64,000 nt of DNA, taken from contig JAEOUA010000011.1 in assembly GCA_016839555.1 (NCBI GenBank), positions 124,001 to 188,000 on the forward strand. The letters run 5' to 3'. The stretch is from Promethearchaeota archaeon. Its GTDB lineage: Archaea; Asgardarchaeota; Lokiarchaeia; Sigyniarchaeales; SOKP01. Positions 1-52,813 of this stretch are shown here, one piece after another. The number at the start of each line of letters is the position of its first letter. Positions within the stretch are counted from its first letter, which is position 1. The translations under genes were made by a program, and so were the position numbers. The notes below the pieces were generated by a model. It was not told the DNA's origin, did no database searches, and saw only the letters and a list, made by a program, of their open reading frames with translations.

Positions 1-295
1 TAGATATCTAATGCGAAAAAGGTTATATGAACAAGAAAATTAAAAAACATTTCAATTTATTATCTCTTGAATGAGAATTTCAAATTGTCTCTTTTTATTT
101 GAAAAATCACTATAATTCTTTTCAATTTGAACTATTTAACAATTTTTGGACTATAAAAATATTTTTAACTATGATTATCTTATATTGTTAAAATAGATCG
201 ATAATTGTTAAATTTTTAAATTTATTTCATTATATTAATTATAAGATATTAATAAAAAATATAGAGATTTTTTGATTTCAAAAGGGTGATTTAAG

Positions 296-943
296 ATAGG
301 ACTTAAAGATAAGCTCTTCCCGAAAAAAAACCGTGATAAGGACGTTACTATAACGAAAGCCAAAACACATATCAGGAAATTAGCTCTTTCCAATAAAAAT
401 TATAGCCAGCGAGCTGAAATTAGTAGAAAGAATGCGAAAATTGCATTAAAGCGCGGTGAAAAAGATAGAGCGAAGAATTATCTTATTCAATATAAAAATT
501 ATCAGAGAAAAATGGATAGAGCCAATAAAATCAGAACAAGAATAGAGAGACAAATTCAAGCAATCGAGGAGGGACAGTTAGTCGCAGATACCGGTAATTT
601 AATGGGTGGGATGAGGGATCAACTAAAAGGAATTGCTACAAAGGCATCTCCTACTGAGGCTGCTGAGATAGCTGAAGATTCTGAATTGTATGTAACTGAA
701 ATAGAGGAGGCTGCAGATATTTTAGCTGGTGATCCAGAGATTGATTTGGCAATTTCAATAGACGATGAATTGGAGAAATTAGAATCAGAAATGTTGTTAG
801 AGCAAGGTGGAGAAATGCCTGAAGTGCCTGCCGATGATTTGCAATACATTTCTGACGTGCCTCTTGAAGAATTACCTCAAGAGGATTCCAAAGACAAACT
901 TGAAGAAGAAATAAAAAAGCTTCGCGAAGAATTGGAAAAATAA
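296..943 (+). CDS. ESCRT-III / Snf7-family protein (CHMP-like), probable non-canonical ATA start
   Basis: Frame of the 512..943 ORF continues upstream: GLKDKLFPKKNRDKDVTITKAKTHIRKLALSNKNYSQRAEISRKNAKIALKRGEKDRAKNYLIQYKNYQRKMDRANKIRTRIERQIQAIEEG..., basic N-terminal helices and acidic C-terminus as in Snf7. In-frame stop TGA at 287-289; no ATG/GTG/TTG before 512. Confidence 0.85.
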   Translation: MGLKDKLFPKKNRDKDVTITKAKTHIRKLALSNKNYSQRAEISRKNAKIALKRGEKDRAKNYLIQYKNYQRKMDRANKIRTRIERQIQAIEEGQLVADTGNLMGGMRDQLKGIATKASPTEAAEIAEDSELYVTEIEEAADILAGDPEIDLAISIDDELEKLESEMLLEQGGEMPEVPADDLQYISDVPLEELPQEDSKDKLEEEIKKLREELEK

Positions 944-16076: not shown

Positions 16077-16364
16077 TTAGTCATCAAGAAACCTGCCACA
16101 GGTATCTTCTAAATGTTTAATGAGATGATCTCTATCTTTCCAAATAATCCACGAATTCCCTAATTTCTCGAAGTGAAATCCCTCGTATTGTTCCTTTTTT
16201 AATTTTGTTAATAATTTCTTAATATATGTCCAAGATAATCCGGTATCATCAACTATTGTTGAGATATCTACTGGTTTATTTACTTTTAACTCTTTATTTA
16301 TATATTTAACAAGTCTTTCAAATGCAGGTGTTGGTGAGGTATCCTCCTTTTCGGATGTAATAAT
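16077..16364 (-). CDS. Small winged-helix/HTH-like protein with probable ATT start (absent from ORF track)
   Basis: Frame: (I)ITSEKEDTSPTPAFERLVKYINKELKVNKPVDISTIVDDTGLSWTYIKKLLTKLKKEQYEGFHFEKLGNSWIIWKDRDHLIKHLEDTCGRFLDD*; preceded by AAAGGTGATAAA then ATT. Confidence 0.6.
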   Translation of the reverse strand: MITSEKEDTSPTPAFERLVKYINKELKVNKPVDISTIVDDTGLSWTYIKKLLTKLKKEQYEGFHFEKLGNSWIIWKDRDHLIKHLEDTCGRFLDD

Positions 16365-16473
16365 TTTATCACCTTTAGATAAATTGGTAGAAAAGAGTCT
16401 TTTTTCTCATTATGTAAAAAAGATTAATATTTAATATAGGTTTTTATCTTTTATTTGAAATAGTAATAAAGGA

Positions 16474-52294: not shown

Positions 52295-52813
52295 TTAACT
52301 TGCTTTTTCATCATTTACAATTTCTTTTAATTGCGAATGATCGGTTTGTATTGCATCAATAAAGCTATTTTGAAAGACTAATTTAGGACCTTTTTTCAAT
52401 TTCATCCTTGTATATATCTTGTCAATATTATTAGAGCTTAACCAATCCGAAATTAAAATCCCTTTTCTCTTTTCTCTATCAACATATTTATTTTTTAAAA
52501 CTTCAATTTTTGATAATTCCCCATTTTCTAATTCTAAAAGTCCAAAAAAAGGAGCTTCACCATATCGCTCATGAATGTGAGAGTTTAATCCATCATTGTT
52601 TTCTAATGGTACAGCTATTTTACTTGTTTTAACTTTTTGAATACTTGTTGTTATAACGATTTTAAAAATTTCACGAAATTGCTGTTGGATTTTATTTGAT
52701 AACTTTTTTTTTAGTAAATCTACTTTTGAAAGTGGCAGATCTTTACTTAATTTTAAATCTGCTTCTAAAAAATTATATTTACCATATGCTCTAATCTCTA
52801 AATTATCAATACT
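52295..52813 (-). pseudogene. CDF C-terminal-like domain + NifX/dinitrogenase-cofactor-like domain, N-terminus lacking or frameshifted (absent from ORF track)
   Basis: Open frame SIDNLEIRAYGKYNFLEADLKLSKDLPLSKVDLLKKKLSNKIQQQFREIF...KTSKIAVPLENNDGLNSHIHERYGEAPFFGLLELENGELSKIEVLKNKYVDREKRKGILISDWLSSNNIDKIYTRMKLKKGPKLVFQNSFIDAI...; no start codon in frame, ATG at 52823-52821 is one nucleotide out of frame. Confidence 0.6.

Follow-up and report, generated by a model that had tools for sequence, protein, structure and literature searches.

How translation begins on an ESCRT-III gene that has no canonical start codon in the 5' part of its reading frame is the question raised near one end of a 64 000-nucleotide stretch of DNA (hereafter the window), which corresponds to positions 124001–188000 of contig C11 in an assembly of 3.74 Mb (genome G000). 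The gene, whose function is membrane remodelling, comes from a Lokiarchaeon, an archaeon related to the ancestors of eukaryotes. Its frame is closed on the 5' side by TGA at 287–289, is open from 290 (TTT AAG ATA GGA CTT...) to the stop codon at 941–943 and holds no ATG, GTG or TTG between 290 and 511, the first canonical codon being ATG 512; standard ORF callers report the gene as 512–943. The sequence AAAGGGTGAT lies at 281–290 and is followed by ATA at 296–298. An initial annotation had described this frame, with a Shine–Dalgarno-like sequence and the in-frame ATA, and had held that ORF callers lose the N-terminal helices. Both points were confirmed, residues 1–72 comprising a short helix (3–7), α1 (13–52) and the beginning of α2 (from 56) in an AlphaFold2 model. 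We propose that the gene encodes the B-type ESCRT-III subunit of the lineage and that it is in all likelihood translated from AUA 296 behind a strong Shine–Dalgarno sequence. The features concerned are collected in Table 1.

Table 1. Coordinates of the features discussed (window positions unless a genome and contig are given)
Feature	Position	Strand	Remarks
Shine–Dalgarno sequence GGTGAT	285–290	+	6 nt between GGTGA and ATA
Inferred start codon ATA	296–298	+	Initiator column of 40 orthologs
B-type ESCRT-III (CHMP4-7 / Vps20-32-60) gene	296–943	+	215 aa, stop included; Snf7 and 9fn1 matches
Segment dropped if ATG 512 is used	296–511	+	Short N-terminal helix, whole α1, start of α2
MIM2-core-like motif MPEVP (residues 174–178)	815–829	+	Published core regular expression
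C-terminal amphipathic helix (residues 197–214)	884–937	+	AlphaFold2; MIM1-like in hydrophobic spacing only
Small, possibly winged-helix gene	16080–16406	-	109-codon frame without any ATG, GTG or TTG
GPN-loop GTPase, own copy	G000:C6:165421-165585	-	Loci L151–L180
SUI1/aIF1 gene	G000:C6:233028-233243 (profile); locus 232918-233268 (L224:918-1268)		

The product is a full-length B-type ESCRT-III protein, and its family is already known. It scores 37.7–38.9 bits with the Pfam Snf7 model, against a curated cut-off of 27.3, and its top sequence match in the PDB is chain 9fn1_U, the Vps20/32/60-like protein of Loki GC14_75, which aligns over residues 1–214 (E 2.7e-82) and whose N-terminus, MGLKKKLFP, falls at the aligned position of the inferred AUA start. 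When the structure predicted by AlphaFold2 (pLDDT 65 on average and about 80–86 across most of residues 21–80) was compared by Foldseek, 9fn1 (Loki CHMP4-7) ranked first (E 4e-11) and 9ftl was also among the best. The model has the basic α1–α2/3 hairpin and the further helices of ESCRT-III, α2 extending over residues 56–114 and being followed by helices at 122–143, 156–172 and 197–214. The protein is thus closer to the B-type than to the A-type Asgard paralog, its best match being Vps20/32/60-like; the genome's other ESCRT-III has the N-terminus MGFLKRVSDWL. The closest known system, Loki GC14_75 CHMP4-7 (KKK44605.1, PDB 9FN1; EMBO J 2025, PMC11791191), belongs to the same family, aligns along its whole length from residue 1 and has the same helix plan and similar tails; its record begins with Met, the comparison being at the protein level. 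In Loki GC14_75 this B-type subunit self-polymerises and remodels membranes (PMC11791191).

The orthologs bear most directly on the start. Among 40 Lokiarchaeial orthologs the initiator codon, directly 5' of GLK(K/D)KLFP, is ATG in 23, ATA in seven, GTG in six, ATC in two and TTG in one, the remaining row being misaligned by one codon with GTG adjoining. Three of the nine rows with AUH (AUA, AUU or AUC) have a usable in-frame ATG or GTG two to three codons upstream (L047, L048 and L148); six of the 40 have AUH only and no in-frame canonical codon upstream, with ATA in G000, G002, G003 and G004 and ATC in G023 and G033. In all six of these genomes a Shine–Dalgarno sequence stands at a fixed distance from the start, either GGTGA followed by 6 nt or GGAG with an equivalent spacing (6–7 nt), and this spacing recurs in other AUH-start genes. 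G000 and G004 agree at 95% of the 20 nt immediately 5' of the ATA but at 38%, near chance, of the 40 nt before these. Orthologs lacking the upstream segment, which the initial annotation had named as the observation that would speak against its proposal, were not what was found: full-length orthologs carry the segment. Moreover, in comparisons with the nearest relatives in the genus, pN over codons 2–72 is 0.08–0.15 and pS 0.8–1.0, near saturation, and synonymous differences of that order together with low pN point to translation of the segment. The tree requires six AUH/NUG changes (bootstrap 5–6), at least three of them forced on well-supported branches, so that a single sequencing or assembly error is ruled out and repeated switching is indicated. 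The non-canonical start is therefore very probably real and recurrent in the lineage, as far as sequence comparison can tell, and the proposed N-terminus (M)GLKDKLF is well supported by the orthologs, the Shine–Dalgarno spacing, the selection on codons 2–72 and the solved homolog.

Were the true start instead a downstream canonical codon, i.e. ATG 512 as in the version given by standard ORF callers, the upstream segment would be an untranslated leader. The strong purifying selection at the protein level on codons 2–72 speaks against this, as does the variable position of the first downstream canonical codon among the AUH genomes (+16, +23, +28, +30, +31 or +72); furthermore, the product from ATG 512 (residue 73) would have none of α1, and ATG-bearing homologs begin at the upstream position. 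We therefore consider a downstream start extremely improbable. Much the same can be said of a canonical start masked by a sequencing or assembly error, for which a one-base change from ATG to ATA or ATC would be enough, the assemblies being MAGs; the fact that ATA is found in four genomes of the genus, each assembled separately, and ATC in two of another genus, together with AUH at the start of many further genes in further genomes, leaves such an error next to no credibility.

Another possibility is a start further 5', in a different frame or across TGA 287–289, by way of frameshifting, readthrough, an mRNA intron or editing. There is an out-of-frame ATG just 5' in G003, and the TGA overlaps the Shine–Dalgarno site. 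However, identity at chance level from −60 to −21 argues against conserved upstream coding, the upstream stop codons vary (TGA, TAA and TAG), and the element that is conserved is a Shine–Dalgarno sequence with its spacer, as in unrelated AUH genes, so that an upstream start is very unlikely. That AUA occupies a start position could finally suggest its reassignment to methionine in the lineage, yet AUU and AUC serve alike, and at internal AUA codons the aligned residue is Ile in 56% and Met in 1.9% of cases, much as for AUU. The genetic code is thus unchanged; reassignment is refuted, and we give it practically no probability.

The initial annotation was right as to the ATA start of this one gene but missed the recurrence of non-canonical starts across the lineage. 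The start column of a GPN-loop GTPase reads ATT in 22, ATA in one and ATG in five of 30 family genomes and ATG in the outgroup and sister genomes; in one copy (L171), TAG lies immediately 5' of the ATT. The small, possibly winged-helix gene on the other strand of the window has an ortholog in 40 of the 41 genomes of the family and would start at AUU, the first ATT (16362–16364) standing behind AAAGGTGAT; an AUU or AUA start behind GGTGA or AGGTGG is seen in G000, G001, G003, G004, G006 and G010, and an ATG start in many other genomes. We also scored the starts of 336 members of 39 ortholog clusters, some of these clusters being antisense artefacts. Here an A-type ESCRT-III (CHMP1-3) gene of G020 has GGTGAACAAACA-ATC (L067, G020:C14:93569-102054), a PfkB-like gene of G022 has GGTGAGAAAAT-ATT and no canonical start, in both G001 and G022 a DinG-like helicase has none either, and the same may hold for a small gene of G011; beyond these, the 39 clusters yielded no further real genes lacking a canonical start. 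Counts of Shine–Dalgarno sequences using 5-nt matches over all codons were too noisy, and the count of GGTGA only was informative: in 752 coding frames (1.1 Mb), GGTGA plus 5–8 nt precedes 8 of 925 AUH codons and 8 of 5224 other non-start codons (odds ratio 5.7, p = 0.001, a value that ignores relatedness, the eight AUH cases including three B-type ESCRT-III copies). The assembly itself is without an anti-Shine–Dalgarno sequence, its 16S rRNA gene (G000:C5:603237-603911) ending at the contig end.

AUH starts are nevertheless confined to a minority of genes, a few per cent at most. A comparison of G000 with 1.2 Mb of G063 gave 100 reciprocal best pairs, in 90 of which a canonical codon stood near the alignment start in both genomes, and pairwise comparison with contigs of the genus likewise gave mostly canonical starts. 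Other codons occur in both genomes: the G000 gene at C1:11342 has an ACG start (GTGATTCACC-ACG) and ATG in G063, and a G063 gene with an ATA start (GGTGAAATCTC-ATA) has ATG in G000. No report of AUA or AUU starts in Lokiarchaeota was found in the open-licence literature, and AUH start usage in Lokiarchaeia is apparently an unreported variant of a known phenomenon.

Several further frames of this genome deserve mention. The frame at 52297–52810 on the minus strand of the window is coding-like, with 172 codons of which the first canonical start is codon 137, and may have either an AUH start or a frameshift. A response-regulator-like gene (G000:C1:38292-38652, plus strand) has the likely start GAGGTGAATTAGA-CTG and a sugar-kinase-like gene (G000 C11:81489-82923, minus strand) the likely start GGAAGTGAATTCTT-ATC. 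An FGGY-kinase-like N-terminus, with few orthologs, has a candidate ATC start. The gene at G000:C2:14404-15022 (minus strand) runs for 101 codons without a canonical start and lacks a Shine–Dalgarno sequence (TAA TAT ATA ATC TCA), and its G063 ortholog has GTG/ATG at the corresponding place.

Our current working hypothesis for the ESCRT-III gene is that the strong Shine–Dalgarno sequence (GGTGA, 6 nt upstream) would place the 30S subunit at the AUA, with which the initiator Met-tRNA would pair despite the third-position mismatch, presumably inserting methionine and giving (M)GLKDKLFPKK. Initiation at AUA would preserve an intact N-terminal helix and α1, and the product would then work as a B-type ESCRT-III polymer, like the Loki homolog. 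Output from AUA is probably lower than from AUG, or regulated, and the level of expression of AUH genes could be set by aIF1, which seemingly has an AUU start of its own.

In G000, the first canonical codon in the aIF1 frame is a GTG that already falls within the SUI1 domain; ICDLCGLPKELCIC, the zinc ribbon, is encoded 5' of it in the same frame and is itself preceded by GAGTGGGAA ATA ATT AGC. In another genus (G063; C1 ~880917), there is likewise no canonical start 5' of the zinc ribbon, the frame having only AGC ATT AAA GAC GAC GAC ATT TGT. Thus aIF1 apparently starts at AUU (or AUA) in two genera, this being the pattern in two genomes, where the Shine–Dalgarno match is weak. In eukaryotes, the eIF1 start is an AUG in poor context, whereas the start in the Lokiarchaeal aIF1 would be a non-AUG codon. 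Archaeal aIF1 frequently has an N-terminal zinc knuckle, and both aIF1 and eIF1 reject non-AUG start codons (PMC6237735), so that a poor start on the aIF1 gene would make the factor limit its own synthesis. In E. coli, AUU starts are restricted to infC and pcnB, and IF3 discriminates against the start codon of its own gene (PMC9410913). The two cases are alike in that an AUH start is used by few genes with a fidelity factor among them, infC there and aIF1 here, but they differ in the factor and the domain of life, the Lokiarchaeon also uses AUA and AUC, and autoregulation of aIF1 would be putative. On the basis of these two genomes we infer that aIF1 may limit itself as IF3 does. More tentatively, Lokiarchaeia might possess a small regulon of AUH-start genes behind strong GGTGA sequences, ESCRT-III and aIF1 among them, through which aIF1 controls itself and membrane-remodelling genes; we regard this as possible but rather unlikely. 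If true, the aIF1 loop would be a convergent counterpart of the bacterial IF3/infC loop. Should AUH starts be regulated by way of aIF1, the stringency of start-codon selection would control how much ESCRT-III is supplied in the archaea closest to eukaryotes, and this control could be tested.

Because common gene callers accept just ATG, GTG and TTG, they truncate AUH genes at the N-terminus or overlook them. The ESCRT-III protein as called would lose α1 and aIF1 would start inside its domain, and such truncated calls touch eukaryotic-signature proteins that are used in arguments on the origin of eukaryotes.

The tail of the protein contains EMPEVPADDL and DKLEEEIKKLREELEK, both as quoted in the initial annotation, which read the former as MIM2-like and the latter, the terminal helix, as MIM1-like and suggested that one protein may carry both. 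The first reading stands in part. MPEVP matches the published MIM2 core regular expression φ-P-x-φ-P (PMC8970359), the core being present in 25 of 40 orthologs in strict and 32 of 40 in relaxed form (chance 1.5%, from shuffling of the protein's own tail), and P175 and P178 are invariant in 13 aligned orthologs; however, the second part, xxP-φ-P, is absent, MPEVP being followed by ADDLQYI. The second reading was not borne out. The MIM1 consensus [DE]xxLxxRLxxL[KR] is a eukaryotic motif, and neither its strict nor its relaxed form was matched by any of the 40 orthologs. The terminal helix is just a conserved amphipathic helix: E205, I206, K208, L209, E212 and L213 are invariant in the orthologs aligned, and it conserves only the spacing L-x3-I-x2-L-[RK]. 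Of the proposed combination the MIM2 core is thus found and the MIM1 consensus is not. MIM2-like tails of Asgard Vps20/32/60 have been published (PMC7240154), as has the combination of a MIM2 with a fragmented MIM1 in one Asgard B-type ESCRT-III (PMC8970359); with these CdvBa2 / Vps20-32-60 proteins (Lu 2020 PMC7240154; Frohn 2022 PMC8970359) the present protein shares the proline-rich MIM2-like core, and their fragmented MIM1-like C-terminal helix was already described. The tail therefore has a putative MIM2-like core, and our data add to prior reports only its conservation in more genomes.

The Vps4 of the genome has a MIT domain. The genome's single other ESCRT-III gene adjoins Vps4 and Vps25 about 147 kb from the B-type gene, and EAP30 lies about 164 kb from it; inspection of the flanking contig for these partners, as had been suggested, thus found all three on the same contig but none adjoining the gene.
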